NCBI GenBank assembly: GCA_017557405.1
Contig: JAFYYV010000047.1
Coordinates: forward strand, 23,378 to 87,377
Reading direction: 5' to 3'
Length of the DNA: 64,000 nucleotides
From: Prevotella sp.
Lineage (GTDB): Bacteria; Bacteroidota; Bacteroidia; Bacteroidales; Bacteroidaceae
The notes beneath the pieces are model-generated. The model searched no databases, was not told the origin of the DNA, and worked only from the letters and a program-made list of their open reading frames with translations. The translations under genes and the position numbers were made by a program. Of the stretch, positions 22,211 to 39,907 are shown in pieces; positions within the stretch are counted from its first letter, which is position 1; each line of letters starts with the position of its first letter.

Positions 22211-22385
22211 AACCTCCCTAACAATTATACAACCTAGGAAGAAATGACTATTCATATTACTTCTTCATACTCTGCTCATTCATAAATCTTATATCGGAGG
22301 CGGGATAAATGTTGAATTGCGAACGTTTTGTAAAGTACTGCTAATGAGCATATTACAAATTGCACAATTTTTGCGCAATAAAAAA

Positions 22386-22417
22386 TTTGGAGGAAATGAT
22401 AGTTTTCCTTATCTTTG
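22386..22417 (+). promoter_or_regulatory. promoter of the TPR regulator gene
   Basis: TTTG (22386-22389), 20 nt, TATCTTTG (22410-22417), perfect. The ATG begins five bases later, so the transcript is probably leaderless. Confidence 0.72.
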
Positions 22418-22422
22418 CAAAC

Positions 22423-24075
22423 ATGAAACTAAAGTGGATTCTGCTAACACTCGTCCTCTTCGTCCTGACGGCCTGCACAGCCGACCATGAGGCAATGCGA
22501 CAGCGGCTGAAGTACCTCAGCGACTGCAACCGTGCCGACACCGTGTTCACAGGCCGGTGGCTCCCCACCGTTGATTCCCTTGTGGTTTACTTCGACCGTC
22601 ACGGCTCGGCAAACGACCGCATGATGGCCCACTATGTGCAGGGGCGCGTCTACCACGATATGGGCGAAGCCCCTCAGGCACTGGAGTGTTACCAGAGAGC
22701 CGCCGAGCAAGCAGACACCACTCGCTCGGACTGCGATCTCTACACGCTTTATGCTATATATGGTCAGATGTCTGTACTCTTCCATTCGCAGTTCCTTCCC
22801 GATGATGAAATGCAGGCATTACAAATGTCAGAGTGGATAGCACGCAAAAATAGCGATACTATTGCAGCTATTAAAGCATACGAATTAAGAATCAGACCTT
22901 ATTCTTTGAAAGGCGAAAAGGACAGTATGATCTTCATCATGAAGAATGCCAGAAAGCAGTATTTATTAGCAAAGGATACTGCACATGCTGCCACGGCAAT
23001 CTATGCTGCAATAAGTATTTATCTTGATTGCCATAATTATTCTGAGGCAAAACAGTTGTTGGATATCTATGAAAAAGAATCAAGTAATTTTGATGAAGAT
23101 GGCAAACTAATAAAAGGCGAATTGTATTATTATGACAAGGGCCGTTATTTGTTAGAAATAGGCAAGACTGCAGAAGCAAAACAATACTTTGAAAAGATAT
23201 CTGATAGAGGGTTGTATGAAGCAAAGTTTCGTGGACTACTCTCAGTCTACGAGAAGCAGGGCACCCCAGACTCTATTTCTAAATTTGCCAAACTTTTTGC
23301 TGCTGCCAACGACTCCAGTTTTTTATATGTCAACCAACAACAGGTGGAACAGGTTCGAGCAAACTATAATTATCATCACCAGCAGCAGATGGCAGAGAAA
23401 AGGAAGCAAGAAGCGAGGAATTGGATGATAGGAGTCATTGGAACTGTCATGACCGCGTTGCTGTTGATTGCTATCCTTATATTATTGTTTTATCGTTTTA
23501 AGGTAAGGCAGCTTGAGGAAATAAGCGACTTGAGGGAAACTAAGGAGAATCTGGAACAGTTGTTGGCAGAAAAGGAAGTGACCTCTGAAGAAATAAGAAA
23601 GGAAATCGTCCGGTTGAACAATAAGAACTCCAGCAATTCAAAGAGACACAAGGAAAACGTCAGCAGATTGCAAGTACAGATAGAAACCCTGCAGAAGAAG
23701 CTACTGGATAGCATACAGACAGCAGAGACTGATCCTAGTTTTGAACACTTGATAGTCGATTTCAAGAACAGGTTGCTGGAATATCATAAAGGCGATAAAC
23801 CACCGACTGAATCAGAATGGGCGCAGCTGAAAAAAGCTTTTTCTTACAACCATCGTAGCGGTTACCTGCTGGTTACGTCACCACGTAACATGACGGAAGA
23901 GCAAATCCGCGTATGCCTGATGACGATGTTGAGGATCAGTGAGAGCATGATGGCCTTTGCCCTTGATACTGACGGTAGACGCGTTGACAGAGTTAAGCGT
24001 CAGGCAAACAAGAAACTCTTCGGTGAAGACAATGCAAGGACGTTGAAGAGCAACCTTCAGCCATATTACCCATAG
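22423..24075 (+). CDS. membrane-anchored TPR/coiled-coil protein, likely regulator
   Basis: A 550-residue protein. It starts with a lipoprotein-like signal (MKLKWILLTLVLFVLTAC), followed by about 310 residues of helical tetratricopeptide-type repeats (MAHYVQGRVYHDMGEAPQAL is typical), one transmembrane helix at about 334-356 (WMIGVIGTVMTALLLIAILI), a coiled coil of about 80 residues, and a C-terminal helical domain ending VDRVKRQANKKLFGEDNARTL. The last part resembles the degenerate HTH at the end of many Bacteroidales TPR regulators. It would sense something outside the cytoplasm and act inside. It precedes the peptide cluster in the same direction but has its own promoter, so it may control the cluster; this is inference from position. 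Confidence 0.65.
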   Translation: MKLKWILLTLVLFVLTACTADHEAMRQRLKYLSDCNRADTVFTGRWLPTVDSLVVYFDRHGSANDRMMAHYVQGRVYHDMGEAPQALECYQRAAEQADTTRSDCDLYTLYAIYGQMSVLFHSQFLPDDEMQALQMSEWIARKNSDTIAAIKAYELRIRPYSLKGEKDSMIFIMKNARKQYLLAKDTAHAATAIYAAISIYLDCHNYSEAKQLLDIYEKESSNFDEDGKLIKGELYYYDKGRYLLEIGKTAEAKQYFEKISDRGLYEAKFRGLLSVYEKQGTPDSISKFAKLFAAANDSSFLYVNQQQVEQVRANYNYHHQQQMAEKRKQEARNWMIGVIGTVMTALLLIAILILLFYRFKVRQLEEISDLRETKENLEQLLAEKEVTSEEIRKEIVRLNNKNSSNSKRHKENVSRLQVQIETLQKKLLDSIQTAETDPSFEHLIVDFKNRLLEYHKGDKPPTESEWAQLKKAFSYNHRSGYLLVTSPRNMTEEQIRVCLMTMLRISESMMAFALDTDGRRVDRVKRQANKKLFGEDNARTLKSNLQPYYP

Positions 24076-24213: not shown

Positions 24214-24244
24214 CAACCAGTAAAACCAATTATTGCAAAGAATT

Positions 24245-24613
24245 ATGAAGAGAAAAATTTTGTTACTCATTGCCATTGTAAGTATGACATTCACATCATT
24301 CTGTTATGCAAGTGAGGCTGGAGAACCTATATCCTTAGAAGGAGGGTATATAGATCCGACATCTCCACATGATGATCCCCACAAAGGCCCCGTTCTGGTT
24401 CCTGAGGTCTCTCTTGATGACCACACGCTGTACTTCTTCACTCCGTGTGACGGCTACACGCTGAACCTCGTGGACGAGAATGATGTAGTGGTCTACACCA
24501 TCGTGATTCCCACAGGTACTACCTCATGGGTACTTCCTGCAACCCTCTCTGGCGAGTATGAACTCCAGCTTATCAATGGCAACTACTGCTTCTGGGGGAT
24601 GATTACTTTATAA
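24245..24613 (+). CDS. DUF3244-like secreted protein
   Basis: A 122-residue exported protein: signal peptide MKRKILLLIAIVSMTFTSFCYA, a short Pro/Asp/His-rich linker, then a compact Ig-like beta domain (LVPEVSLDDHTLYFFTPCDGYTLNLVDEN... ending GEYELQLINGNYCFWGMITL). This is the DUF3244 pattern of Bacteroidales. Two cysteines in the mature part may form a disulfide. Function unknown; it is the first gene of the apparent peptide-cluster transcript, 62 bp ahead of the VKOR gene, and might be an immunity or accessory factor. A start four codons upstream (24233) is possible. Confidence 0.65.
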   Translation: MKRKILLLIAIVSMTFTSFCYASEAGEPISLEGGYIDPTSPHDDPHKGPVLVPEVSLDDHTLYFFTPCDGYTLNLVDENDVVVYTIVIPTGTTSWVLPATLSGEYELQLINGNYCFWGMITL

Positions 24614-24675
24614 ATTAATGTAGCAAGCCATAAGTGCAAGTAATTCTTTTCAAGCATATTCTGTTTTTATCCACG

Positions 24676-26292
24676 ATGAATTTCATCAGAAATCTGCTAT
24701 ACCCCATGTCAAATGTAGAAGAGATTGCATTTCTCATCTGCGAAGATCTTGGTGTCAAGGTGTCTCTCAATAGCTTGTCTAAACATTTGCGAGAACATCC
24801 TTATTTCCCAAGTTTATTGGCCGTACATGATGAGCTCAAGACTATTGGAATAGACACTTTGACACTGAAAACCAATGACATACAACAAGTTAAGCAGCAT
24901 ACAGCGTTGGTTCAAATAAAAGCAGAAGATGGCGGACACCTGTTTGCCTATACTTATGCCCAAACAGACGAATGCCTTGACTGGTTCAATCCCATAAAGC
25001 ACAAGCGAGAAATCATAAAGCACGAGGATTTTTCGGGAATTTTTACGAGTTATGTGATGCTGTTTGAAGCATCCAGCAGTGCTGGTGAAAAAGACTATCC
25101 GTCATCGCACCGTTCTGAAACCAGACAAAGCATCATAGAATTCGCTCTGATACTTTTCGTTCCCGTCTTTTTTGCCTTGACGACAACTATTCATATTTCG
25201 CAGACTGGATTTGAATTTTGGCAGCGATATCTCTATGTCTTGTTTCTTTTGGTAGGATACGCTATCTGCGGCCTGTTGCTGCTTCACGATTACAACGAAG
25301 AAAGCTCCATTTTGTCAAACTTTTGCGGACGAAACGAGAAAACCAATTGCGCTGCCGTTTTGCATTCAAAAGGCTCTCAATTTTGGGGAATCTCGTGGAG
25401 CGTCATCGGAGGCGCGTATTTTCTGGGGATGCTTCTTACTCTACTCATCTCTTTCTATGACAGCAGAATATTCCATACCATTGCCGTCTTACACGGGTTT
25501 ACCCTGCCTTATGTCATCTATTCCCTTTATTACCAGAGATTTAAGATAAAACAATGGTGTACGCTGTGCTTGTCCGTACAGGCAGTACTTGTAATCCTAT
25601 TTTTCCTATCTGTGATTTTCGGGGCATATCACCATATCAAAGAGATTACTGTATCCTCAATAATTTTTGTTTTGGGCATATCGTTTTTGGCTTTTACTTC
25701 TTTATTCTTTTTGTGGCACCTCGCAAAACAAGTGAAAGAAAATCGCTATGGAAAAAGAATGCTGAACAGATTCAAGTACGACAAAGATGTTTTCAATGCG
25801 TTATTGCAAAAGCAGAAGAAAATCACCATCCCGACGGAGGACTATGGCATCATTTTAGGCAATCCGAATGGAAACATTCATATCGTAGAAGTCTATAATC
25901 CGTATTGTGGTCATTGTGCCAATGCACAGGCGGAATTACGGAAATTATTGGAAACGAATGATGAAATAAAAGTGCATATCATTTTTGCCGCCGACCCAGA
26001 TTCTGAATACTATGACCAAATGCCCATTGACATGTTTTTGAGTCTTTACGAGGAGAAAGCCGATGTAGCATCTGCCCTCTCGGATTGGTTCGACGGGAAA
26101 GTTAAAACCACTGAAGAGTTAAAACAGAAATATCCCGTTACCCACGTAAACACTCCCAAAAACAGGGAAAATGCAAAGGCAATGGATCGATTCTGCAAAG
26201 AAACGGAGATTACGGGGACACCCACTATATTTATCAACGGAAATCGGTTGCCAGACATTTATCGTACTGGTGATTTGATGTTTTTTTATTAA
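24676..26292 (+). CDS. VKOR-thioredoxin disulfide-forming membrane protein
   Basis: A 538-residue fusion. Residues 1-130 look like a C39-peptidase fold without its catalytic cysteine (LREHPYFPSLLAVHDEL, LVQIKAEDGGHLFAY). Residues about 155-350 are a vitamin K epoxide reductase-type membrane domain with loop cysteines C217 and C225 and the redox pair C295-x-x-C298 (QWCTLC). Residues about 385-538 are a thioredoxin/DsbA-like domain with C411-G-H-C414 and a GTPTIFING cis-proline loop. VKOR-thioredoxin fusions oxidise thiols and pass electrons to quinone. The next gene encodes a six-cysteine peptide, so this enzyme is the likely disulfide former for it. The degenerate C39 domain may recognise the double-glycine leader. 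Confidence 0.87.
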   Translation: MNFIRNLLYPMSNVEEIAFLICEDLGVKVSLNSLSKHLREHPYFPSLLAVHDELKTIGIDTLTLKTNDIQQVKQHTALVQIKAEDGGHLFAYTYAQTDECLDWFNPIKHKREIIKHEDFSGIFTSYVMLFEASSSAGEKDYPSSHRSETRQSIIEFALILFVPVFFALTTTIHISQTGFEFWQRYLYVLFLLVGYAICGLLLLHDYNEESSILSNFCGRNEKTNCAAVLHSKGSQFWGISWSVIGGAYFLGMLLTLLISFYDSRIFHTIAVLHGFTLPYVIYSLYYQRFKIKQWCTLCLSVQAVLVILFFLSVIFGAYHHIKEITVSSIIFVLGISFLAFTSLFFLWHLAKQVKENRYGKRMLNRFKYDKDVFNALLQKQKKITIPTEDYGIILGNPNGNIHIVEVYNPYCGHCANAQAELRKLLETNDEIKVHIIFAADPDSEYYDQMPIDMFLSLYEEKADVASALSDWFDGKVKTTEELKQKYPVTHVNTPKNRENAKAMDRFCKETEITGTPTIFINGNRLPDIYRTGDLMFFY

Positions 26293-26324
26293 TCTTATTT
26301 ATTCATTTAAAACGTTTAAAACGT

Positions 26325-26570
26325 ATGAAAAAGTTAAAATTGAATTTGTCACCGAATCTCGGTGAGGTGTTAACGAAAGACGAACTCAAACATGTGTTCG
26401 GAGGTAGTGGGGTTGGAAGCGGATCAGGATCAAGTTCTGGTACTTTAGAAAATTGTGGTTGCAGCGGCAAAAAAGAAAATGACTCATGCTGTTATTACAA
26501 AGACGGTACTAAGTACGATGGACATTGTAAGTATCTGCCATTCTCAGGACTTCAGTGCTGGGGTGGTTAA
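26325..26570 (+). CDS. double-glycine-leader, six-cysteine peptide precursor
   Basis: An 81-residue precursor. Residues 1-27 form a leader of the GG-Bacteroidales type (LGEVLTKDELKHVFGG), ending Gly26-Gly27, where the C39 peptidase of the exporter should cut. The 54-residue core starts with a Ser/Gly-rich stretch (SGVGSGSGSSSGT, seven Ser/Thr) and continues with six cysteines: C44, C46, C55, C56, C68, C78. The even number, the adjacent pair in the middle and a VKOR-thioredoxin neighbour suggest three disulfides. The core ends QCWGG. Likely a secreted bacteriocin-like or signalling peptide; the activity is not known. The gene lies 32 bp after the VKOR gene and is followed by a strong hairpin. 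Confidence 0.85.
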   Translation: MKKLKLNLSPNLGEVLTKDELKHVFGGSGVGSGSGSSSGTLENCGCSGKKENDSCCYYKDGTKYDGHCKYLPFSGLQCWGG

Positions 26571-26623
26571 ATGGCATGTTTTTAATCTTTTTGTGTAATA
26601 AACAAATTGAATCTCTCGTTATT

Positions 26624-26663
26624 TACAGTGAGGAGGGTTTTGTAATAATACCCCCTCGCTGTA
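26624..26663 (+). terminator. hairpin after the precursor gene, likely partial terminator
   Basis: TACAGTGAGGAGGG pairs with CCCCCTCGCTGTA (one G-U, one bulge) around a loop of about 13 bases. Only GATTTT follows, so read-through is expected. Such an element would give many copies of precursor message and fewer of the downstream export genes. Confidence 0.6.
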
Positions 26664-26705
26664 GATTTTAAATGCCATGATGCGATCCTTAAATAAAATA
26701 AAGAT

Positions 26706-29531
26706 ATGCAACCTTCAAAAAGCATCATTGTAGCCATTTTGCTCACGCTGTTGAGCTTCGTGCAAGCCTCCGCCAAGGAGCACGACCACCAAGTTCAAGG
26801 AGTCGTTTTCGACAGTTTTTCCGAAGACGGACTGCCAGCCCTCATCACGCTGATGACCGCCGACAGCGTCGTTATCGACACCGTCAGGGCTGTTCCCAGC
26901 AACTACCCTTTCCGCACCTATCCCCGTGCCGCCGACTATCGGTTCACGATTCAGAAAGTGGGCCACTACATCGTGAAGGCGGAAATGGAGGGCTACATCG
27001 ACGCCTACGTGAACTTTGAGTTGCGCAGTCAGCGAGAGCAGACCGTCAGCGTAAAGCCGCTTCGGATGATGAAGGCGTTTCACGACCTGCCCGAAGTGAC
27101 CGTGAAGGCAACGAAAATCAAAATGGTGATGCGGGGCGACACGATTGTCTATAACGCCGATGCCTTCAACTTGGCCGAGGGTTCGATGCTCGACGCACTG
27201 GTGAGCCGGTTGCCAGGCGTGAGGCTGACAAGGGAGGGCGAGATTTTCGTGAACGACAAGAAGATTGAGAGCCTGCTCGTGAACGGGCGCGACTTCTTCA
27301 GCGGCAGTCCGCAGGTGGCACTGCAAAACCTGCCTGCCTACACGGTGAGCAAAATCAAGGTCTATGATGAGGCCGGTGCCGCCTCGCGCATCATGCAGCG
27401 CGACATGAGCGACAAGCGGTATGTGATGGACGTGAATTTGAAAAAGGAGTATTCCAAGACTTATATCGGCAATGCCGAGGTCGGCTATGGCACAGAAAAT
27501 CGCTATTTAGTGAAGATTTTCGGGATGAAAATGTCGGATCTGGAGTGGATAGTTGGTTCTGTCAATGTCAATAACCTGAGCGACAACCAGAAAATCGGAT
27601 TTGATTATGGAAGCAACGGGTTCGACTGGACTCCGCAGGATGCGGTCGATGGGCGGATGACCAACCGCGAGGCGGTTTTCGGCTACACACGATTTCTTCG
27701 TGATAGTCGTAACTGGTTTAGCTGCGAAATCACGCTGAACCATAGCAACTACGACAACGAATCGCGCACGACCACGCAGACCTATCTGCCCGAAGGCGAT
27801 TCCTTCCAGAAAAATCAGAGTCTTTCCGATTCAAAAACGACATGGTATGAAGGCAGCCTCAATCATCACCTCGAAAAAAATGGCATTTTCAATATGGCGA
27901 ACTTCAACTTGCACTACAACAGCCGTGACGGCCTCAGCCACACGATCCAGACCACCAGCGACTCGGTCTCGGTGCTCAACGAAATGCTGTCGCGCGGTTC
28001 TTACAAAAATCAGATTATTCACCCCAGTTTTACTTTGGATGGCGGCGCGAAAATCATCGCCGATATGCTTCGGTGGAATTTCAACGCCGACTACGACCGA
28101 TACTCCGCCGACCGTTTCTCGCTCAACGATGTTCAATATATGAACGGCCAGACGCCGCGTGACTTCCGCAACACCTACGGCGACAACGGACATCAGCAGT
28201 GGAACATCAAGGCGAACTCCTTGTACGAAATCTGCTGGCCCGACAAGAAAATCGCGCCCGAATACGAATACAATTACCGTTACAACAAAACCTCGAATAT
28301 GCTCTATCGCTTGGACAGGCACATCGATAGGGATTCCGCGATTTGGGATATGCTGCCGTCGGCCCGCGAAGCTTTGATCGACGTGCTCGACAAGCCCAAC
28401 AGCTACGATTTCCACGAATATCAGAACCATCATCGCTTCAAACTTCAAGTGGTATCTGGGGAGGAATACTCCGATGAAAAAGGCATCGTGAATTATTGGC
28501 GATTGCAACTTCCCCTGCGCATCGAGCACAACAACCTTTACTACAACCGCCTCGGACGGCACGACGTCAGGCGACACGCCGTGTTTTTCGAACCGGATTT
28601 CAATGTCAAAGGAAAGATTTGGGACATCAAATGGAGTTTTTCGGCCAATATGTGGTCGGAAATTCCCGATATGACTATGCTCGTGAACTATCGCGACGAC
28701 ACCAATCCGCTCAACATCCGCCTCGGCAACCCCGACCTGCGCAATCAGCACTACTACAGTGCATCACTCAACCTTCGGCATTGGATAGACAAACATCAGC
28801 AGTCATATTGGCTGACCATCGGCTACAACCAACAGGACAACGCCGTCGCCTATGCCACCGAGTTCGACAAAAAGACTGGCATCTCCACCGTGCGACCCGT
28901 CAGCGTGAACGGCAACTGGAACACGAGCGCGAATTTCGGCTTCTCGCGTGCGCTCGGAGAGTCCGAGAAGTTCACCATCAACAACCAACTGGGCTACAAC
29001 TACCACCACAGCGTCGATATGGCGACCGTTTCTGGCTTCGCCTCGACCGTGCGCAGCATCGTCAACAACCACCAGTTCAGCGACAACCTCCAACTGACCT
29101 TCCGACCCAACGACAACTACGAGTTCACGCTGCACGGTGGCGGCACCTACTACCTCGTCGGTAGCCGTCGTGAGGGCTTCGAAAACATCAACGCCAGCGA
29201 CTATCAAGTCGGCTTCAACTCGACACTGAACCTGCCTGCGAAGTTCCAGTTCGCCACCGACCTGACAATGTACGCCCGTCGCGGCTATCAGCAGCGCGAG
29301 ATGAACGCCACCGACTGGGTCTGGAATGCCCAACTCACGCGCAGTTTCCTCAAAGGAAAACTCCTCGCCAAACTCAAGGGCTTCGACATCCTGCAACAAC
29401 TCTCCAACACGCGCTACGTGATGAATGAACAAGGCCGCACCGAGTCGTGGCACAATAGTATTCCGCGCTACGTGATGTTCTCGCTTTCGTGGCGGTTCAA
29501 TATTACACCACAAAAGAAAAATGAACTATGA
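26706..29531 (+). CDS. outer-membrane beta-barrel protein, TonB-receptor-like
   Basis: A 941-residue outer-membrane protein. Signal peptide (MQPSKSIIVAILLTLLSFVQASA), a carboxypeptidase-regulatory-like domain (VQGVVFDSFSEDGLPALITL, about 30-120), a plug-like domain (GDTIVYNADAFNLAEGSMLDALVSRLPGV, about 152-180, then LLVNGRDFFSG), and a long barrel rich in alternating aromatic strands, ending FSLSWRFNITPQ. It fits the OMP_b-brl_3/TonB-dependent-receptor-like family. In this position it could let the peptide cross the outer membrane or act as a receptor for it. It is G+C-richer than the genes after it. The stop overlaps the next start (ATGA). Confidence 0.8.
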   Translation: MQPSKSIIVAILLTLLSFVQASAKEHDHQVQGVVFDSFSEDGLPALITLMTADSVVIDTVRAVPSNYPFRTYPRAADYRFTIQKVGHYIVKAEMEGYIDAYVNFELRSQREQTVSVKPLRMMKAFHDLPEVTVKATKIKMVMRGDTIVYNADAFNLAEGSMLDALVSRLPGVRLTREGEIFVNDKKIESLLVNGRDFFSGSPQVALQNLPAYTVSKIKVYDEAGAASRIMQRDMSDKRYVMDVNLKKEYSKTYIGNAEVGYGTENRYLVKIFGMKMSDLEWIVGSVNVNNLSDNQKIGFDYGSNGFDWTPQDAVDGRMTNREAVFGYTRFLRDSRNWFSCEITLNHSNYDNESRTTTQTYLPEGDSFQKNQSLSDSKTTWYEGSLNHHLEKNGIFNMANFNLHYNSRDGLSHTIQTTSDSVSVLNEMLSRGSYKNQIIHPSFTLDGGAKIIADMLRWNFNADYDRYSADRFSLNDVQYMNGQTPRDFRNTYGDNGHQQWNIKANSLYEICWPDKKIAPEYEYNYRYNKTSNMLYRLDRHIDRDSAIWDMLPSAREALIDVLDKPNSYDFHEYQNHHRFKLQVVSGEEYSDEKGIVNYWRLQLPLRIEHNNLYYNRLGRHDVRRHAVFFEPDFNVKGKIWDIKWSFSANMWSEIPDMTMLVNYRDDTNPLNIRLGNPDLRNQHYYSASLNLRHWIDKHQQSYWLTIGYNQQDNAVAYATEFDKKTGISTVRPVSVNGNWNTSANFGFSRALGESEKFTINNQLGYNYHHSVDMATVSGFASTVRSIVNNHQFSDNLQLTFRPNDNYEFTLHGGGTYYLVGSRREGFENINASDYQVGFNSTLNLPAKFQFATDLTMYARRGYQQREMNATDWVWNAQLTRSFLKGKLLAKLKGFDILQQLSNTRYVMNEQGRTESWHNSIPRYVMFSLSWRFNITPQKKNEL

Positions 29532-30190
29532 ATACGAAACAAATATCTGTCTATGCACCAAATCTGTCGGAGCGAAAAGATAGGCTAAAATCCATCCAAA
29601 GGCAATTTTCCGGAAAACCCGAATTTGACTTCGCCGTAGTTCCTGCTATAAGACATGAAACGGGAGCTTTTGGCCAATGGCAAACATTTGTAAAATTAGT
29701 CAAGCAGGAACTGAAAAAAAACAGCGAGTACTTTATTTTCTGTGAAGATGACCATGTGTTTACAAAAGACTATCGTTTTGAATATCTGTTAGAATGCATT
29801 CAGCAAGCAGACCGTTTCGGAGCGGACATTTTGTGTGGCGGCATCGCTTATGTCATAGATGCCATTCGGTGTACAGACCATTTGTTCTGGATGAAAACAT
29901 TCAATGGTATGCAGTTCACTGTTATTTTCAATCGTTTCTACGAAAAAATCATCCAGTCTGATACAGAAGAGGGCTTTGTTTCGGATTATTATCTTTCAGA
30001 AATTAGCGATCATAAATTTGTGATGCATCCTTTTATTTCCATTCAAAAGGAATTCGGATATTCTGACATTACGGCGCAGAACAATCAAAAAGGATATGTG
30101 AGAAGGTGTTTTAAAACGATCGATGAAAAATTACACCTATTAAAGAAAGTAGAACAATTTTACAAAAAAGCAACATATGAAATACGATGA
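29528..30190 (+). CDS. GT25-like glycosyltransferase, first copy
   Basis: A 220-residue protein of the glycosyltransferase family 25 (LPS beta-galactosyltransferase-like) type. Landmarks: an N-terminal strand and helix with NLSERKDRLKSIQRQF (12-27), a metal-binding acidic motif FCEDDHVF (about 74-81) and KEFGYSDIT (about 178-186). No signal peptide: cytoplasmic. In the peptide cluster and coupled to the barrel gene by an ATGA overlap, it may modify the precursor core rather than lipopolysaccharide. It shares perhaps a third of its residues with the next gene, so the two are paralogues. The family link is by motif only. Confidence 0.7.
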   Translation: MNTKQISVYAPNLSERKDRLKSIQRQFSGKPEFDFAVVPAIRHETGAFGQWQTFVKLVKQELKKNSEYFIFCEDDHVFTKDYRFEYLLECIQQADRFGADILCGGIAYVIDAIRCTDHLFWMKTFNGMQFTVIFNRFYEKIIQSDTEEGFVSDYYLSEISDHKFVMHPFISIQKEFGYSDITAQNNQKGYVRRCFKTIDEKLHLLKKVEQFYKKATYEIR

Positions 30191-30839
30191 AATATCAATA
30201 CCGACCTATGTCATCAACCTGCCTGAGCGTGTGGAACGCAGGGATAACATCATGAGCGAATTTAAAGACAGAAAAGAATTTGAATTACATATCGTAGAAG
30301 CCACAAGGCACGAAATAGGAGCCGTTGGACTTTGGAAAAGCATTAAAGACATCATTCAAGAGGTCGTTTCTAAAAACGAAGACGATGTTATTATTATATG
30401 TGAAGACGATCATATTTTTACGAAATTCTATCAAAGGGATTTGTTTATATCCCAAGTCTGTCGTGCAGCGCAACTTAACACACAGATATTATTTGGTGGC
30501 ATCGGAGGATATGAAAATGCCGTGAAAATTTCGGATGATATGTTTTGGATAGATTGGAATTGGTGTACGCAGTTTATGGTTGTATATAAACCAGCCTTTG
30601 AAAAAATTCTAAAAGCAAGATTTACGAAACGTGATGTTGCTGATGAGTTTCTAAGCAAGATTATTTCCAATAAAATGGTGCTTTATCCTTTTATCTCCCG
30701 TCAAAAAGATTTTGGTTATTCTGATGTGACAGCATCCAATAACAACAATAAAGGACTGATAGAGAATCTATTCGACAAGACAGAAGCTCGTTTAAATAAA
30801 ATGATGGATGTTTATCAGAATTTTTGTGGCTTTCAATGA
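30177..30839 (+). CDS. GT25-like glycosyltransferase, second copy
   Basis: A 220-residue paralogue of the preceding gene, which it overlaps by 14 bp. It is closer to the family standard: YVINLPERVERRDNIMSEF (about 11-29), acidic motif ICEDDHIF (about 75-82), and KDFGYSDVTASNNN near the C-terminus. Both copies keep the same core motifs, so both are likely active; they might add two different sugars or act as a heterodimer. Cytoplasmic. The C-terminus overlaps the exporter start by an ATGA, so all these genes are translated as a coupled unit. Confidence 0.72.
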   Translation: MKYDEISIPTYVINLPERVERRDNIMSEFKDRKEFELHIVEATRHEIGAVGLWKSIKDIIQEVVSKNEDDVIIICEDDHIFTKFYQRDLFISQVCRAAQLNTQILFGGIGGYENAVKISDDMFWIDWNWCTQFMVVYKPAFEKILKARFTKRDVADEFLSKIISNKMVLYPFISRQKDFGYSDVTASNNNNKGLIENLFDKTEARLNKMMDVYQNFCGFQ

Positions 30840-33049
30840 AAACACAACGCTTTCCCCATTTGCTTCAATACGATGCCGCCGACTGCGGCCCAGCCTGCCT
30901 GCGCATGGTGTCGAAGCATTACGGCAAGGAATACTCAGCGGAAATGCTACGCCAGCATTGTTTTATTTCTCGCAACGGAGTGTCGATGTTGGGTATCAGT
31001 GATGCCGCGGAAAATTTGGGATTCCACACGATGGGTGTGAAAATTTCGTTTGAGCAGTTGACGGAAGAGGCTGTTTTACCTTGTATTCTGCACTGGAATC
31101 AGAATCATTTTGTGGTGTGCTACAAAATCGAGAAAAAACGCAAGGGGAATTACAATATCTATATTTCCGACCCTGCTTCAAAGAAACTTTGCTATACGAA
31201 AGAGGAGTTCTTGAAATGTTGGTTGAGCACGAAGTCGGGCGATGTAGAGAAAGGTGTGGCCTTGCTGTTGGAACCCGGCGTGAATTTCGGAGAATGTGAT
31301 GAAGAAGTCATCACACAGAAGCGCAGCCTTAGTCATTTTTTGAAATACCTACTTCCCTATAAAAGCCAGTTCTTCCAATTGATATTGGGAATGGTGGTGG
31401 GCTGTATGCTCCAACTGCTTTTTCCGTTTCTGACACAGGCGATGGTGGATCTCGGCATCGAAGGCCGGAATATGAACATCATCACCTTGATTCTCATTGC
31501 ACAACTAATGCTTTTCTTGGCACAACTCAGCGTAGGATATATCCGCAGTTGGATTCTGCTACACGTAAACTCGCGCATAGATATTTCACTGATTTCCGAT
31601 TTTCTGATCAAATTGATGAATATGCCCCTACATTTTTTCGACACCAAGAAAATCGGCGACATCTTGCAGCGTATAGGCGACCACGGGCGCATCAAGAGCT
31701 TTCTGATGGGTAATTCCATCAACATCGTCTTCTCTTTGGCGAACTTTTTCATCTTTGCAGCGGTTTTGGCCTACTACCATTACAAAATTCTGGTCATTTT
31801 CCTTATCGGAAACTTTTTCTATGTCTTGTGGATTCTGTTTTTCATGAAGTATCGCCGGGAACTTGACATCAAGCGTTTCAACCAGTCGGCAATGGAGCAG
31901 AACAAAGTGATACAGATTATTCAAGGAATGCAGGAAATCAAGTTGAACAACTGCGAACGGCAAAGACGCTGGGAATGGGAGCGCATACAAGTGAAACTCT
32001 TTAAAATCAGCCTGCGCGGATTGACCATCGGCCAAATTCAACAAGCAGGCTCTATATTTTTTACGCAGACCACGCACTTCATCATCACATTCATTGCCGC
32101 CCGTGCCGTTGTCAACGGCGAGATGACGCTCGGTATGATGATGTCGATGACCTATATCATTGGCCAGATTTCGGCTCCGATAGGAGAGTTTATCGGATTT
32201 GCTCAGGCTTTGCAGGATGCCAAGATCAGTTTGGAGCGATTGAACGAAATCCACGCACAGGACGACGAGGAGAAAGACATCGCCCGGAAACTGACCATTT
32301 TGCCGGAAAACAAATCCATCAAGATAGAGCATTTGAAGTTCAGTTACGACGGCTCAGACAGGCAACACGCCCTTGACGACATCTCACTTGTGATTCCCGA
32401 ACACAAAGTGACAGCCATCGTTGGAGAGAGTGGCAGTGGAAAATCGACGCTCGTTAAACTGATACAGGGTTTCTATACGCCCAACAGCGGAAGCATCAAA
32501 ATTGGTACGGCCAACCTGAACACCATCAATCCGCATCTGTGGCGCAGCAAAACAGGAAGTGTGATGCAGGAGAGTTTTATCTTTTCCGACACCATTGCCA
32601 ACAATATCGCTTTGGGCACGGACAAGGTGGACGCGGAACGCCTATATCATGCCTCTGTTATGGCCAATGCCGATGAATTCATTTCCGAATTGCCATTGGG
32701 ATATAACACGCGCATCGGACAGGAAGGAATCGGTGTCAGCCAAGGGCAACGACAACGGCTTTTGATTGCGAGGGCCATCTATAAAAATCCCGAATTCATC
32801 TTTTTCGACGAGGCGACCAACGCACTCGACACGTCCAACGAACGGCTGATTATGGGGAACTTGCAGGAATTTTACATGGGAAAGACCGTCGTAATCGTCG
32901 CCCACAGATTGAGCACGGTCGTCAAAGCCGACCAAATTGTGGTGCTTAAACAGGGAAAGATTATTGAGCAGGGAACGCACAAGGAACTTATTCAATTGGG
33001 TGGGGAGTATTATACTTTGGTTAAGAATCAACTGGAATTAGGAACGTAA
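30836..33049 (+). CDS. C39-peptidase ABC exporter of double-glycine peptides
   Basis: A 737-residue PCAT-type transporter. N-terminal C39 peptidase with Gln11, Cys17 (DAADCGPACL), His91 and Asp112: the full active site that cuts after Gly-Gly leaders. Membrane domain of about six helices (about 170-450). Nucleotide-binding domain with Walker A GESGSGKST, signature GVSQGQRQR (a form of LSGGQ), Walker B FIFFDEATNALD and switch His in VAHRLST. Start at 30836 uses the ATGA overlap with the glycosyltransferase; a start four codons upstream is also open. It should cleave and export the 26325-26570 precursor. Confidence 0.94.
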   Translation: MKTQRFPHLLQYDAADCGPACLRMVSKHYGKEYSAEMLRQHCFISRNGVSMLGISDAAENLGFHTMGVKISFEQLTEEAVLPCILHWNQNHFVVCYKIEKKRKGNYNIYISDPASKKLCYTKEEFLKCWLSTKSGDVEKGVALLLEPGVNFGECDEEVITQKRSLSHFLKYLLPYKSQFFQLILGMVVGCMLQLLFPFLTQAMVDLGIEGRNMNIITLILIAQLMLFLAQLSVGYIRSWILLHVNSRIDISLISDFLIKLMNMPLHFFDTKKIGDILQRIGDHGRIKSFLMGNSINIVFSLANFFIFAAVLAYYHYKILVIFLIGNFFYVLWILFFMKYRRELDIKRFNQSAMEQNKVIQIIQGMQEIKLNNCERQRRWEWERIQVKLFKISLRGLTIGQIQQAGSIFFTQTTHFIITFIAARAVVNGEMTLGMMMSMTYIIGQISAPIGEFIGFAQALQDAKISLERLNEIHAQDDEEKDIARKLTILPENKSIKIEHLKFSYDGSDRQHALDDISLVIPEHKVTAIVGESGSGKSTLVKLIQGFYTPNSGSIKIGTANLNTINPHLWRSKTGSVMQESFIFSDTIANNIALGTDKVDAERLYHASVMANADEFISELPLGYNTRIGQEGIGVSQGQRQRLLIARAIYKNPEFIFFDEATNALDTSNERLIMGNLQEFYMGKTVVIVAHRLSTVVKADQIVVLKQGKIIEQGTHKELIQLGGEYYTLVKNQLELGT

Positions 33050-33061
33050 CAGACTGGAAAA

Positions 33062-33787
33062 ATGGAAAACAAAAGTAAAAACATAAACATCGAATTGAGA
33101 AGCGAGGAGGTGCAGGAACTGATGGGGAGAATACCGCCAGTTATTCTGCGTGTCGGAATCGGAAGTATTCTCTTGATTCTGTTGTTGTTTTTCGTCGCAA
33201 GTTTCCACATCAAATATCCGACCTATGAAACGGTTCCAGTGAAACTAAATATAGGTGAGAATACATGTGATGTTGTTATGCCTTTTGACGGAATTATTGT
33301 CAATTTAAATGTCGATGACGGGGAAAGCATAAAAATGCACGACACGTTGATGCAAGTTGTCAATCCGATACCGTCAGGCAACGACATAACCGTCTTGCGC
33401 TCTCCTTCAGATGGAATCGTATATGCTTGTGATTTCTTGGAAAAAGGGATGTCTTTCAAGCAGGGAACGCCTCTGTTTGTTATTCGTCAGGGTTGCAACG
33501 AAAAAATGACGGGAAAATGCTATATCGGCCAACAAATCAAACAGAAAATGGAGATAGGCACAGAGATAGAATGCGTTGGCCAAGGAGTTGTGTTAAATGG
33601 AAGAATCGGAAAGGTGGCGAAGGTGATGAATCCCCAACAAAAAGGGTATGCTGTAGAAATTGTTTTTGATGAAAATGCATTGCCAGAGGACATTCAGGCA
33701 ACGAGTGATCTTTTCGCCAAGTTTCAGATATCGGAAAGCACTATTTTCGAGCTGTTTTTCTTGAAATCGATGCTTCCGAAGATATAA
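33062..33787 (+). CDS. HlyD-like membrane fusion protein
   Basis: A 241-residue inner-membrane anchored adaptor: short cytoplasmic tail, one transmembrane helix (about 34-52), then a biotinyl-lipoyl-like domain (VVMPFDGIIVNLNVDDGESI, about 70-90; VLRSPSDGIVYACDFLEKG) and a beta-barrel part. It is short for the family and lacks the long coiled-coil hairpin, as is usual for adaptors paired with C39 exporters in Bacteroidetes. It starts 12 bp after the exporter gene and closes the peptide cluster. No TolC gene is nearby. Confidence 0.82.
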   Translation: MENKSKNINIELRSEEVQELMGRIPPVILRVGIGSILLILLLFFVASFHIKYPTYETVPVKLNIGENTCDVVMPFDGIIVNLNVDDGESIKMHDTLMQVVNPIPSGNDITVLRSPSDGIVYACDFLEKGMSFKQGTPLFVIRQGCNEKMTGKCYIGQQIKQKMEIGTEIECVGQGVVLNGRIGKVAKVMNPQQKGYAVEIVFDENALPEDIQATSDLFAKFQISESTIFELFFLKSMLPKI

Positions 33788-34079: not shown

Positions 34080-34110
34080 TTGCATGCACCTGCCGATTGT
34101 CTTAATTTTG
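34080..34110 (+). promoter_or_regulatory. promoter of the VirE-like gene
   Basis: CTTG with TTG at 34080-34082, 20 nt, TAATTTTG (34103-34110). Perfect -7 box. Start near 34117, leader about 15 nt. Confidence 0.68.
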
Positions 34111-34131
34111 CAGAAGTCAATCCAAAAAGCT

Positions 34132-36249
34132 ATGGAACTATCAGTATTTCGTAATTTCTGGGACAAGGTGCCGGTCAGCAGTACGCTGGAAGCGATGGTG
34201 GAGGCTATCCGCTCTGACCAGCGGACAAGGGAACTGACGGAGGGGTATCGGCTGCACCAGTTGGACTCGCTGAAGAACGAGAGTATGCTGTTTGCCGTGC
34301 CGTGTGTGTTCGAGGGCGGCAAAGCACAGAAGCATGTGGTGAGGTTGACGGGAATGGCGATGGTGGACTTTGACCACGCCGACCAATTGATAATTGAAAA
34401 TGGAAAATTGAAAATTCAGACCGACCCGCACACACTGCTGTGCTATACGACGATCAGCGGCGAGGGGCTGCGGGTGCTGTACCGCTACGAACTGGACGAG
34501 GCGTTTCCGCTGAAGCAGCAGATACAGTACTACCGCAAGGCGTTTGCAACGGGCAATGCGTACTACGGGCAGTTGATTGGCGCGGAGACGGACGTGAAGT
34601 GCAAGAACGTGACGAGGCTGACGGTAGTGGCGCATGACGAGGCAGTGTACTTTAACCCCAAGGCAGAGGCGTTCTCGGCAGCGTGGATAGAGGTCGAATG
34701 GGAACGGCTGCAGGGGCCGCAGAAGGCACAGCGCAAACAACAGCGCGAACTAGCTCGCATCCGCAGGGTGTACGAAAAGACCATCCGGCCGGAAGTGGAA
34801 GCCGAAGGGGCGGTGTACACCGACGGTTCGCACAACGACTACGTGATGCGCGTGGGCTACCGGCTAAACCAGTTCGGTTTCTCGTTGGAGGCCGCTAAGG
34901 AGTGGGCCATCAGCGAGTTCGCGGATTATGAGCGCACGGCAGACATCATCACGTATTGCTATGAGAAGGAGGAAGAGCACGGCAGCCGTGGCGGACAAAA
35001 GCACTACTATGCAGCGGCGGGTGGCAGCGGGTTTGCGTCGGTGGAGGAGATTAGGACATACCTCGGTGAGCATATCCAGCTGAGGCATAATGTGATAACG
35101 ATGCGAGTGGAAAGCCGTGTCCCCTCCCAACTTCCTCTGTATAAGGGAGGAGAATGGTTACCTATCACTGACCGCATAGTAAACTCGCTATGGTCAGAGA
35201 TGTCGAATAAGAGACGGGTGAACGCACAGGACATCTACCGAGTGATAGAGTCGGATTTCGTCAAGGATTTTCATCCGTTCAAGGAGTATCTGGAATCGCT
35301 TTCCACACACACCGACCAGACTGACTACATCCGCGAACTGGCCGCGACAGTCAGGGTAAAGGGTGGGCCAGCAGAACAGGAACTCTTTTACCTGTATCTG
35401 AGGAAATGGCTCGTGGCAATGGTCGCTGGATGGGTGGACGATGCCGTCGTGAACAATGTCATCCTGGTGCTGATAGGCGAACAAGGCTCGTACAAGACGA
35501 CGTGGTTCAATTTTCTCCTTCCGCCAGAATTGTCGAAATATTTCTATACAAAGACCAATGCCAACCGGATGGGGCGCGACGACCTGTTGACGTTGGCGCA
35601 GTACGGGCTGGTGTGCTGTGAGGAACTGGACACCATGCGCCCCTCAGAACTGAACCAGTTGAAGGCTGCGGTCACCATGCAGAGCATCGACGAGCGGGCG
35701 GCATATGCCCACTTTCATGAGCACAGGATGCACATCGCATCGTTCTGCGGCACGGGCAACAACGTGCAGTTCCTCTCCGACCCCACGGGCAACCGCCGCT
35801 GGCTGCCTTTTGAAATCGTGGACATACGGTCGCCCCGTGAACAGCCGTTCAACTACGAGGGTATCTATAGCCAGGCATACCAACTCTATCGCTCGGGGTT
35901 CCAGTACTGGTTTTCGAGGGATGAGATCGTGCGGCTGTCGGAACATAACCGCCAATATGAGACACCTCGGTTGGAGCATGAACTGGTGCAGTTGTACTTC
36001 CGACAGCCCAGAGAGTTGGAGAGCGGCGTGTTCATGAGCGTGGGCCGCGCCCTGCAGATTGTCAGCAGCAACATCTCGCAGAAACTGTCGGTGGTCTATA
36101 TGGGCCGTGCCTTTGCCGAACTGGGTTTCCGTCGTGTGAAATGGGGCGGCCAGCGTGGGTATATTGTCTTGCAGCGTACCGCTGAGGAGATTCAGATGGT
36201 GCAGCGCTCGATGGCTGCACAGGCCGTGACGGAGGAAACGGGGCGGTAG
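34132..36249 (+). CDS. BT4734-like/VirE-type P-loop protein
   Basis: A 705-residue protein. The N-terminal part (about 1-200) is of the BT4734/BF3469 type, related to primases (LTGMAMVDFDH, TLLCYTTISGEGLRVLYRY). The C-terminal half is a virulence-associated-E ATPase: Walker A GEQGSYKTT (about 447-455), VCCEELDTM as Walker B, and TGNRRWLPFEIV (about 545-556), as in phage and plasmid primase-helicases. With the next four genes it forms a set found again and again in Bacteroidales genomes. A 35-bp heptamer array lies inside the gene (residues about 85-96, LIIENGKLKIQ). Role unknown; probably replication of a mobile element or its remnant. Confidence 0.82.
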   Translation: MELSVFRNFWDKVPVSSTLEAMVEAIRSDQRTRELTEGYRLHQLDSLKNESMLFAVPCVFEGGKAQKHVVRLTGMAMVDFDHADQLIIENGKLKIQTDPHTLLCYTTISGEGLRVLYRYELDEAFPLKQQIQYYRKAFATGNAYYGQLIGAETDVKCKNVTRLTVVAHDEAVYFNPKAEAFSAAWIEVEWERLQGPQKAQRKQQRELARIRRVYEKTIRPEVEAEGAVYTDGSHNDYVMRVGYRLNQFGFSLEAAKEWAISEFADYERTADIITYCYEKEEEHGSRGGQKHYYAAAGGSGFASVEEIRTYLGEHIQLRHNVITMRVESRVPSQLPLYKGGEWLPITDRIVNSLWSEMSNKRRVNAQDIYRVIESDFVKDFHPFKEYLESLSTHTDQTDYIRELAATVRVKGGPAEQELFYLYLRKWLVAMVAGWVDDAVVNNVILVLIGEQGSYKTTWFNFLLPPELSKYFYTKTNANRMGRDDLLTLAQYGLVCCEELDTMRPSELNQLKAAVTMQSIDERAAYAHFHEHRMHIASFCGTGNNVQFLSDPTGNRRWLPFEIVDIRSPREQPFNYEGIYSQAYQLYRSGFQYWFSRDEIVRLSEHNRQYETPRLEHELVQLYFRQPRELESGVFMSVGRALQIVSSNISQKLSVVYMGRAFAELGFRRVKWGGQRGYIVLQRTAEEIQMVQRSMAAQAVTEETGR
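34385..34419. repeat. 35-bp heptamer array inside the VirE-like gene
   Basis: Five consecutive 7-mers: AATTGAT, AATTGAA, AATGGAA, AATTGAA, AATTCAG. It is A+T-rich in a G+C-rich gene and encodes LIIENGKLKIQ without breaking the frame. Confidence 0.8.
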
Positions 36250-37738: not shown

Positions 37739-38155
37739 ATGAGACGAATAGATTTGATTGTCGTTCATTGTTCGGCGACACGCTGCAACCGCTCGTTCCC
37801 CTTCGAGGCGCTGGATGCCTGTCACAAAGCTAAAGGCTGGAAGTGCTGCGGCTACCACTACTACATCACCCGCGACGGCCAGATGCATCAGGGACGACCC
37901 AAGGAGATGGTGGGTGCCCACGTAGGCCCCAAGTACAACCCTCACAGCATCGGTGTCTGCTACGAGGGCGGCTACGACGAGAACGGCCATGTCGCCGACT
38001 CCCGCACTCCCGCCCAAAAGCACGCTCTCGTCGCCCTTCTCCGCTCGCTGAAGGCCGACTATCCCGACGCCCAGATCCTCGGCCACCGCGACCTGCCCTG
38101 GGTGAAAAAGGCCTGCCCCTGCTTAGATGCTCGCAAGGAGTATTCGAGCCTGTAA
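37739..38155 (+). CDS. N-acetylmuramoyl-L-alanine amidase
   Basis: A 138-residue amidase_2/PGRP-type zinc hydrolase, which cuts the bond between muramic acid and the stem peptide. It starts MRRIDLIVVHCSATR (His10 a zinc ligand), keeps YHYYITRDGQMHQGRP, GAHVGPKYNPHSIGVCYEGG and the C-terminal GHRDLPWVKKACPCLD with the second His and Cys ligand. No signal peptide in this frame; the longer frame upstream has a hydrophobic segment but crosses A+T-rich spacer. In phage-like settings it is an endolysin; here it closes the conserved cassette and is followed by a strong terminator. Confidence 0.9.
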   Translation: MRRIDLIVVHCSATRCNRSFPFEALDACHKAKGWKCCGYHYYITRDGQMHQGRPKEMVGAHVGPKYNPHSIGVCYEGGYDENGHVADSRTPAQKHALVALLRSLKADYPDAQILGHRDLPWVKKACPCLDARKEYSSL

Positions 38156-38165
38156 CTTCTCAGAA

Positions 38166-38201
38166 AAAGGGATGTGCATTTCAAATTGCACATCCCTTTA
38201 T
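38166..38201 (+). terminator. terminator after the amidase gene
   Basis: AAGGGATGTGCA, loop TTTCAAAT, TGCACATCCCTT, then TATATTATT: a 12-bp perfect stem 11 bp after the stop. It lies between converging genes and can serve both. Confidence 0.85.
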
Positions 38202-38259
38202 ATTATTCTGGTTTCAGAAGATTTCATGATGCAATGGCAATGACTTGTTTTACAGCTTT

Positions 38260-38589
38260 CTAGTATTCTCTCATGAATTCTCGCATCAGTCCCTTTTGAA
38301 CAGTTTTATATTGTTGTGTCCATTCTGAGTTCCCTTCAATATTGTCCTCGTAAAAATGAGTGATGCAGTCAATTGCCTTATCAATAGTACTTGCTGCAAT
38401 AGGAGTCTGAAATCCCATTGCATTCATTAGGCCGAAACTTAGAAATTCTGCGCACTCAGGTACATTCATCAGCGTTTTCACTTTCCGTACATACGCCTTA
38501 AACTCCTCATCTTTCGCCTTCTGCTCCAATACCTCCAGGAAGATGTCGGCAAGAGTAAGCGGACGTGTATCAGAATTATCACTCTCCAT
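38260..38589 (-). CDS. hypothetical protein, end of the RloB operon
   Basis: A 109-residue acidic, helical protein (MESDNSDTRPLTLADIFLEV..., ending GLMREFMREY). I do not recognise a domain. No signal peptide or membrane segment. It starts 8 bp after the HEPN-like gene, so it belongs to the same A+T-rich operon, though its own composition is closer to the backbone. Could be an accessory gene or an older neighbour. Confidence 0.6.
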   Translation of the reverse strand: MESDNSDTRPLTLADIFLEVLEQKAKDEEFKAYVRKVKTLMNVPECAEFLSFGLMNAMGFQTPIAASTIDKAIDCITHFYEDNIEGNSEWTQQYKTVQKGLMREFMREY

Positions 38590-38597
38590 GTCGCAAT

Positions 38598-39326
38598 TTA
38601 CTTTTTAATATTTGAACGAAACAATAATTCTTCTATTATAACCCTATATTCTGTTATAACCTCATCAATATATTGCTTTTTGGTCGTATATTGAATTTTA
38701 TGAGCGGACAAGTTTCCTAACTCTCGGATTTTGTTCAAAGAATCCTTTGTCTGCTTTTGTAGATTAAACCTCTTTTTATCTATAATATCCTTGATTATTA
38801 CATTCAAATTCTTGTACCCCTTTTCTTCTACAATTTCATCAGACAATCCGTTTGCCTCATAAGTATGTATTAAAAGAATTTCCATGAGCCTTCGCATCAA
38901 TACTGCACACCCATCAAAAATATTATTTTCGTATGAGGCATTAACCTGTTTCGCCAATGATTCTATATAGCCTCTCGTATTAGAATATAGCGATAGAGGA
39001 AGAATCATTTCGTTACATACTATTTCTTCTGACGGCTGTAACAAATAACTAAACTCTTGATCTAAAGTCTCAATAAGTTTTCTGGAAGGACGATAACCTG
39101 TACGCTCCGTTAAGATATCTTTACTTTTTCTCAAAGCATCTTTCAAACGGGTAGAATTATACTTAGACAAGTGTGCATCTACAAAATACTGATTTATATG
39201 CTCTATAGTACACGACTCAGTTTCGTGCAACTTATAATGTAGCCACACGAAACTAATTGCTTGCTCTGATTTCAATTTGAATTTATCGCAGATCGCTGAA
39301 AGAAGAGAATCCTTATTATTACTCAT
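38598..39326 (-). CDS. DUF4145/HEPN-like protein in a defence operon
   Basis: A 242-residue protein. The C-terminal half (about 125-242) looks like a DUF4145/HEPN helical domain: NIFDGCAVLMRRLMEILLIH (135-154) and IRELGNLSAHKI (200-211), with Arg201 and His209 in the position of the HEPN R...H pair (seven residues apart, slightly wider than the RNase standard). The N-terminal half is helical and without a known domain. HEPN proteins in such operons are often RNases or AMPylation targets in phage defence. Overlaps the upstream gene by an ATGA. Confidence 0.62.
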   Translation of the reverse strand: MSNNKDSLLSAICDKFKLKSEQAISFVWLHYKLHETESCTIEHINQYFVDAHLSKYNSTRLKDALRKSKDILTERTGYRPSRKLIETLDQEFSYLLQPSEEIVCNEMILPLSLYSNTRGYIESLAKQVNASYENNIFDGCAVLMRRLMEILLIHTYEANGLSDEIVEEKGYKNLNVIIKDIIDKKRFNLQKQTKDSLNKIRELGNLSAHKIQYTTKKQYIDEVITEYRVIIEELLFRSNIKK

Positions 39327-39907
39327 TTCTTAGTTTTATTCTTTTGTTTCTTTTTCGAAACACTTGTTGAACGTCCTTCTGCAATTGCTTTCACTTGTTC
39401 AACACCAGCAGGAGTAAGGGCATAAGAAGAACTATTGGGGGCTGTTATATAGGATCTTTTAATAAGGGCATTAATATTGGATGTAACATTCTTCCGTCTA
39501 GAATCAGAATACACCTTATTATTTCTATACGCCTCAACCACTTCCGAACGATTTATCGGATTCTGGTTACCATTGGACATTTTATAAAGTATCAATAATA
39601 GAATATCAGTTTCTGACTTAGTATATTGTTTCGTCACTAACTCGTATACTGACGGTATCGTATCTATGACCTCACATTCATCTGAAGACTGTTCCAGGAA
39701 ATCCGTCTTACAAGTCAATTGATTAGATTGACTTACAGGAACTGAGGATGGATTAGTAACAAAAGTATCTCCAATATTAATTAGATTGTACTTTATCAAC
39801 AAATAGTGAATAACCCTCTTCTTGGTCTCATCATCTAATTTTGAAAGAGCTTTCGAACATTTAGCCAATGCCTCGAACTCCAATTCGTCATTATCAATTT
39901 CTGCCAT
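39323..39907 (-). CDS. winged-helix-like accessory protein
   Basis: A 194-residue protein. The region about 95-175 (TKSETDILLLILYKMSNGNQ, NVTSNINALIKRSYI, SSYALTPAGVEQVKAIAEG) has the shape of a winged helix; the C-terminus is a Lys-rich tail (KKKQKNKTKK) typical for nucleic-acid binding. The N-terminal 90 residues are unrecognised. It lies 42 bp after the RloB-like gene and overlaps the HEPN-like gene. It may regulate the operon or be part of the effector complex. Confidence 0.6.
   Translation of the reverse strand: MAEIDNDELEFEALAKCSKALSKLDDETKKRVIHYLLIKYNLINIGDTFVTNPSSVPVSQSNQLTCKTDFLEQSSDECEVIDTIPSVYELVTKQYTKSETDILLLILYKMSNGNQNPINRSEVVEAYRNNKVYSDSRRKNVTSNINALIKRSYITAPNSSSYALTPAGVEQVKAIAEGRSTSVSKKKQKNKTKK

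Follow-up and report, generated by a model that had tools for sequence, protein, structure and literature searches.

A candidate glycosylated, disulfide-bonded peptide system with paired GT25-like glycosyltransferases in a Prevotella genome

What does a bacterial gene cluster make when a small cysteine-rich precursor is encoded beside a thiol oxidase, a peptidase-exporter and two glycosyltransferases (GTs)? The question is raised by positions 24245-33787 of a 64,000-nucleotide stretch of Prevotella sp. DNA (contig JAFYYV010000047.1 of assembly GCA_017557405.1; hereafter "the window", meaning the whole stretch analyzed). The cluster probably produces a glycosylated peptide with three disulfides and exports it; serines of a Ser-Gly tract would be the most likely sugar site, and the product is most likely antibacterial. 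The observations behind this reading are the gene content, the recurrence of the set, the predicted folds of the second glycosyltransferase and of a C39-like domain, even cysteine counts, and an association between Ser-Gly and GT25.

All parts named by a first-pass annotation of this DNA (precursor, oxidase, two glycosyltransferases, exporter, fusion protein and barrel) are in place as located, co-linear on the + strand, according to the list of open reading frames (ORFs) and Pfam:

24233-24613, + strand: secreted 126-residue ORF, likely starting at ATG 24245 (122 residues), with a signal-peptide-like N-terminus.
24634-26292, + strand: VKOR-thioredoxin oxidase, likely starting at ATG 24676 (VKOR, E=1.8e-17; Thioredoxin_4, E=1.7e-9).
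24712..25170, + strand: putative inactive C39-like domain of the oxidase (hhalign, structure model, Foldseek).
26325-26570, + strand: precursor of 81 residues with a double-glycine (GG) leader (ORF).
26325..26405, + strand: precursor leader of 27 residues with GG at its end (leader profile match).
26406..26567, + strand: core peptide of 54 residues with six cysteines (ORF).
26406..26444, + strand: Gly/Ser tract at the core N-terminus, a candidate glycosylation site (sequence; Ser-Gly/GT25 association).
26621..26666, + strand: predicted RNA hairpin between the precursor and barrel genes (minimum free energy -25.2 kcal/mol).
26706-29531, + strand: OMP_b-brl_3 outer-membrane barrel, directly 3' of the precursor (Pfam, E=9.2e-20).
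29528-30190, + strand: GT1, GT25-like glycosyltransferase (homology to GT2; alignment; CEDDH motif).
30177-30839, + strand: GT2, GT25-like glycosyltransferase (alignment; model; Foldseek; CEDDH motif).
30824-33049, + strand: C39 peptidase-ABC exporter (PCAT), likely starting at ATG 30836 (Peptidase_C39, E=3.5e-32; ABC_tran, E=1.2e-29).
33062-33787, + strand: membrane-fusion (HlyD-type) protein (HlyD_3, E=2e-5).

The genes from barrel through exporter overlap or are closely spaced. By their coordinates, GT1 and GT2 overlap by 14 nt, and the ATGA overlaps reported earlier were recovered as 4 nt between barrel and GT1 and, if the exporter starts at ATG 30836, 4 nt between GT2 and exporter. The double-glycine precursor was likewise confirmed, with its 54-residue, six-cysteine core following GG in the frame C-x-C-x8-CC-x11-C-x9-C. 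Its score against TIGR04149 (GG_sam_targ_CFB) lies under the curated cut-off (15.4 versus 25 bits; 13.1 in the genome search). The last five cysteines keep a frame common to five precursors of Chitinophaga dinghuensis, whose stretch (L027; stretches fetched for comparison carry L numbers) also holds fused and single GT25 genes, an oxidase and an exporter.

The start of the core appears to differentiate precursors that occur with GT25 from those that do not. GT25-bearing VKOR clusters were compared with VKOR clusters without GT25, with the GG site placed by the leader profile and after removal of identical copies and of a core of only three residues (L074); 45 GT25-free or nearly GT25-free VKOR stretches were fetched from a Pedobacter-centered sample, and L112 entered as GT25-bearing owing to a weak fragment. 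"GS" fell within the first eight core residues of 31/39 precursors from stretches with GT25 and VKOR versus 3/38 GT25-free controls (p=8.0e-11), or, counted per locus, 22/28 versus 3/22 (p=9.5e-6). Similar contrasts were found within one family only (23/25 versus 3/38), against controls without GT4, GT2 or LanC-like matches (31/39 versus 3/35), and over all GT25 stretches with or without VKOR (33/48 versus 3/38). The idea came from the window, L023, L025, L028 and L038; stretches fetched after it arose (L049-L082 were fetched later) gave 19/23 versus 3/38. The excess lies mostly ahead of the first cysteine, where Ser-Gly made up 112/348 dipeptides with GT25 and VKOR versus 11/259 in controls, compared with 128/1972 versus 47/1620 past it. 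Nine VKOR-free GT25 precursors had little Ser-Gly (5/53 dipeptides before the first cysteine). Ser-Gly right behind the GG site is a candidate acceptor site. Cysteine number was even in 48/48 GT25-linked cores and 36/38 control cores, which fits with disulfides in both groups.

Long Gly-Ser runs also occur outside recognizable precursors. Leader-like small proteins at L069:12313-12732 (-), L069:11496-12167 (-) and L073:11296-11883 (-) carry very long ones (58 residues in the first) and adjoin a fused GT25 pair and a VKOR gene; their starts are leader-like with no clear GG, and they were not relied on. Some precursors of GT4 clusters (L127, L131) likewise begin with Ser-Gly after GG.

The glycosyltransferase family is sparse but recurs with export genes across Bacteroidota. 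It was found in 12/301 genomes of the window's family, 7/244 from the family to which a Chitinophaga genome belongs, 31/251 from that of a Pedobacter genome and 3/395 over the phylum; matches in 7/31 Pedobacter-family, 1/7 Chitinophaga-family and 1/3 phylum-wide genomes were left out as weak or partial. Fifteen loci lie in named genomes, including Tannerella, Paludibacter, Chitinophaga, Pedobacter, Mucilaginibacter and Chryseobacterium. At E<1e-15 the family was present in 60/122 stretches examined (L051 and L055 overlap; L046, L047 and L112 were fetched yet fell under this cut). These comprised 33 with two profile stretches in one ORF at a lenient cut-off (our meaning of "fused"), 16 ORF pairs and 11 single copies, so that 49/60 carried a tandem or fused pair. 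An exporter was found in 44 of the 60 and an oxidase in 31, the latter accompanying 15/16 ORF pairs, 16/33 fusions and 0/11 singles. The first-pass annotation had named loss of GT25 from the precursor's neighborhood as evidence against its proposal; such loss was not what we found, a GG-leader ORF being present in 34/60 and an exporter or oxidase in 51/60. Across 21 genomes that bear the GT (~115 Mb), exporter matches numbered 61, a background of ~1% per 20 kb (counted with different programs and cut-offs), so this co-occurrence is more than chance.

GT1 and GT2 are mutually homologous (E=2.9e-43), and both carry the CEDDH motif. In a 20-sequence alignment, CEDDHxF and QKxFGYSDVT are near-invariant blocks. 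The label GT25-like stands through relatives and fold: among seven relatives scanned against PF01755 (cut-off 24 bits), those from L025 (43.1), L035 (52.1) and L027 (26.1) score above it, L037 equals it and three fall below, and the GT2 model (pLDDT 91.5) has a fitting predicted fold. Its top Foldseek match was 9u7i, a dimer titled only "glycosyltransferase", followed by human collagen galactosyltransferase COLGALT1 (9evk; the best named match, E=7.5e-9, with a TM score of 0.61 normalized to the query and about 17% identity where the two align) and then Mimivirus R655. Lower down came beta-1,4-galactosyltransferases from bacteria and GT-A enzymes belonging to other families. Searched against sequences of solved structures, the GT profile matched only Mimivirus R655 (E=0.97). 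By eye, neither protein has an obvious signal peptide, so cytosolic action is assumed. Fusions extend the family elsewhere: L036:8676-10664 (-) joins two GT25 domains and a methyltransferase-like domain (Methyltransf_11, E=6.6e-6) in one protein, its gene adjoining VKOR, precursor and barrel genes, and L037:8369-10129 (+) joins a GT25 domain to a GT4-type transferase.

The oxidase may be steered toward the exported peptide by its N-terminus. Its VKOR and thioredoxin cysteines (C231, C239, C309, C312, C425, C428) are invariant in 7/7 sequences, and its first 150 residues align with the C39 domains of exporters (hhalign probability 96.5). Pfam C39 matches 6/7 oxidase relatives (best 3.3e-11), while the window protein (0.0018) lies under the cut-off. 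Among the structures retrieved with the domain model (pLDDT 87.5) were PCAT1 (E=3.9e-7), 6mpz, a protease with bound leader, and the C39-like domain of HlyB (3zua, E=3.6e-5). In the profile alignment the catalytic-cysteine position precedes the aligned part, and none of the seven oxidases has a cysteine there. By analogy with the HlyB domain, which we take to be non-catalytic and substrate-binding, this region is perhaps a docking domain. The exporter keeps the catalytic set: its DCGP-C, H and D positions, which we presume to be the C39 catalytic Cys, His and Asp, are invariant in 7/7. Exporter (E<=1e-80) and oxidase (E<=1e-20) each had one match only in this 3.56-Mb genome.

Together, these features suggest a pathway in which the two GT25-like enzymes, acting as a pair in the cytosol, would add sugar to the precursor, most likely on serines in the Ser-Gly tract that separates the GG site from the cysteine-rich scaffold; one enzyme may start the glycan and the other extend it. 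The C39 exporter would cut after GG and move the peptide out, aided by the membrane-fusion protein and, probably, by the outer-membrane barrel. Disulfide closure would fall to the VKOR-thioredoxin oxidase, acting on the periplasmic side; its inactive C39-like domain probably binds either the leader or the substrate of the exporter, which would couple oxidation to export. The product would most likely be an antibacterial peptide of the bacteroidetocin kind. We infer the sugar transfer, its site and identity, the order of steps, the topology, the coupling role and the activity. The earlier proposal of a glycosylated, disulfide-bonded, secreted peptide thus fares unevenly: an exported, disulfide-bonded peptide is well supported, and the putative glycosylation is backed by association and a predicted fold.

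Several points weigh against this interpretation. The window glycosyltransferases taken alone are under the PF01755 cut-off (GT2, 15.1 versus 24 bits; GT1, no match), so that on these proteins by themselves the earlier GT25-like label is weak, and by a simple regular expression EDD is absent from 7/43 first and 15/43 second GT copies. The Ser-Gly statistics are uncorrected for kinship. Their 38 control precursors all belong to a single family, the one sampled around a Pedobacter genome, because the Bacteroidaceae controls (L123-L137) yielded no precursor by leader profile. No immunity gene was identified for the cluster, and antibacterial activity is argued solely by analogy with bacteroidetocins. 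Moreover, eleven precursor-bearing GT25 stretches have no GS in the first eight residues (L023, L035, L036, L052, L062, L068, L069, L074, L075, L079, L112), including one from the window's own family, L036, with its GT25 pair, oxidase, exporter and barrel. The Ser-Gly tract could be a plain spacer in a peptide that is exported, oxidized and glycosylated, with the GT25 pair acting on the cysteine-rich part, as would suit known glycocins, whose disulfide-bonded core bears sugars at Ser and Cys residues (available text of PMC12457901). We consider this unlikely, though it survives best among the alternatives, given that the Ser-Gly excess tracks GT25 among VKOR clusters and is concentrated ahead of the first cysteine.

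Alternatively, the peptide may be secreted and disulfide-bonded without sugar, the GT25 pair having some other target, such as the barrel, a glycan or a self-protection receptor. Bacterial GT25 enzymes are known mainly from lipopolysaccharide synthesis (available text of PMC3244457), and sugar transfer to the peptide is our interpretation; this explanation nevertheless appears distinctly improbable, as the GT pair keeps company with exporter or oxidase genes, the majority of the listed Pedobacter-family stretches have no barrel relative, and precursor sequences differ by GT25 presence. That an ordinary bacteroidetocin-type cluster, which its peptide, oxidase and exporter do match, received unrelated glycosyltransferase genes by chance is very hard to credit and was already disfavored, given the overlapping genes in the window and the recurrence across several families. 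Capsule glycosyltransferases inserted by chance were rejected as a candidate, as was a lanthipeptide, there being no LanC-like or LanM match among the cluster proteins; nor do we claim a knottin fold for the core.

Sister clusters appear to use another glycosyltransferase module. The window's family supplied 18 VKOR stretches (the window, L036, L038 and 15 others): three carry GT25, ten a TIGR04157-like GT4 (all among the 15 others), nine LanC-like genes and five neither GT25 nor GT4; GT25 and GT4 shared a stretch in 0/18. The GT4-bearing VKOR clusters are L123, L125, L127-L133 and L135, and most of them also hold LanC-like genes. Three GT4 proteins were scored against the TIGR04157 cut-off of 400: one lies above (413.6) and two below (299.5 and 292.5), TIGR04157 being the best NCBIfam match for these two also. 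A window-type core profile matched held-out peptides in L125, a GT4 cluster (E=8.9e-4), and marginally in L124, where no GT was found (E=0.017), so similar scaffolds may persist while the glycosyltransferase module changes. Eight GT25 stretches without VKOR carry GT4, which limits the exclusion to VKOR clusters; VKOR-free GT25 stretches with GT4 or LanC-like genes (L022, L024, L041, L043, L044, L045 and L081), along with L037 and its GT25-GT4 fusion, seem to form a second branch of exporter clusters associated with GT25. The first-pass annotation had contained neither this alternative module nor the oxidase's C39-like domain or the Ser-Gly association. A more speculative extension, to which we give somewhat less than even credence, is a proteoglycan-like pathway of Bacteroidota, in which cytosolic tandem GT25 enzymes, with a fold of the collagen-galactosyltransferase type, would place sugars on Ser-Gly repeats of double-glycine peptides before C39 export and disulfide knotting by an oxidase that a dead C39 domain steers, with a swappable module (the GT25 pair, or TIGR04157 GT4 plus LanC-like protein) on otherwise similar machinery.

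A barrel gene follows or lies near a precursor gene in the window, L036, L127, L131, L132 and others, and the barrel may serve the peptide as its cognate exit channel or may act in self-protection. The hairpin between these two genes (z -4.39; 0/200 shuffles equally stable) is a possible partial terminator or processing site and could keep the precursor transcript in excess. The 126-residue ORF resembles DUF3244 remotely, under the cut-off (E=0.071), and has a relative beside the VKOR gene of L127 (E=4.4e-17). Just upstream, window 22360-24075 (+) encodes a 571-residue TPR-type protein with relatives near VKOR genes in L123, L127, L131 and L132, which may be a regulator of such clusters. Downstream, window 34084-36249 (+) encodes a VapE-like protein with a BT4734-like N-terminus, followed near 36.8-38.2 kb by HU-like and amidase-like ORFs recognized by eye; the region looks like a mobile or satellite element. 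GC content drops to 0.40 and 0.335 at window 38000-40000, from ~0.5 in the kilobases before.

If the proposed pathway is correct, the disulfide-rich peptides known from Bacteroidota of gut and soil would gain a glycosylated branch, a branch of GT25 would gain a peptide-modifying job, and Ser-Gly following the GG site would stand as a simple acceptor motif. The module would be a potential tool for glycosylating disulfide-rich peptides. The C39-like domain of the oxidase suggests a route to selective oxidation of one exported peptide, which is relevant because Bacteroides is reported to lack general disulfide machinery (available text of PMC6671954).

How does the cluster compare with known systems? 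The first-pass annotation knew of no described system with this set, which was too strong: bacteroidetocins are published (PMC6671954), and TIGR04157 (glyco_rSAM_CFB), whose relatives sit in the sister VKOR clusters, is in NCBIfam. As described in the available portions of PMC6671954 and PMC8546649, bacteroidetocins (class IIf) are likewise cysteine-rich peptides of Bacteroidota with a GG leader, a dedicated thiol oxidoreductase for full activity and a double-glycine peptidase exporter, and they too have no obvious immunity gene. The window holds the same combination, a GG-leader cysteine peptide beside a thiol oxidoreductase and a C39-ABC exporter. Compared by description rather than by sequence, bacteroidetocins A and B differ in having a leader of 15-16 residues and four cysteines (27 and six in the window) and a four-gene region that includes a five-TM protein (PMC6671954, in part); no further gene of that type lies between 24245 and 33787, judged from the ORF list without a topology program. 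The term "glycosyl" is absent from the main text of the 2019 and 2021 papers (PMC6671954, PMC8546649, available portions).

Clusters of the GG-Bacteroidales type pair GG peptides with C39 exporters, with glycosyltransferases in some and VKOR versions in the window's family; those with TIGR04157 have a GT4-type enzyme and a LanC-like protein, whereas the window has a GT25 pair and neither of those. Glycosyltransferases occur in 2/9 selected Bacteroidales clusters for ribosomally synthesized and modified peptides, with GT25 and VKOR unnamed in the available part of PMC10352776. Among the papers listed from a literature of partial coverage, we saw none that describes paired GT25 genes together with a C39 exporter or a VKOR peptide cluster; a term search of PMC13289728 returned no bacteroidetocin, glycocin or VKOR. 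COLGALT1 shares the predicted fold of GT2 and is a polypeptide-acting GT25 transferase. It acts on hydroxylysine. An EDD motif is reported for it (PMC3244457, in part).

"Glycocin-like", as the cluster had been called, holds for its logic only. A SunS-family (TIGR04195) transferase, which we take to define glycocins, was not matched by GT1 or GT2 at E<=0.1. Other marks of glycocins are sugar at a Ser, Thr or Cys residue of the core and a nested disulfide arrangement. In the available text of PMC12457901, glycocins (sublancin, glycocin F, thermoglycocin) share with the window a precursor, a peptide glycosyltransferase, thiol-disulfide proteins and a C39 exporter, and thermoglycocin also has three disulfides, but their transferase is of the SunS/ThgS type rather than a GT25-like pair. 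The claim of a different family for every job did not hold for the exporter, which is of the same C39-ABC kind. Unlike glycocins, the window has a VKOR-thioredoxin oxidase with a C39-like domain and Gram-negative export parts. The closest kin of the cluster are the bacteroidetocin and GG-Bacteroidales systems, and what would be new relative to all of these, on sequence and modeling grounds, is the candidate Ser-Gly acceptor together with a putatively C39-guided oxidase.

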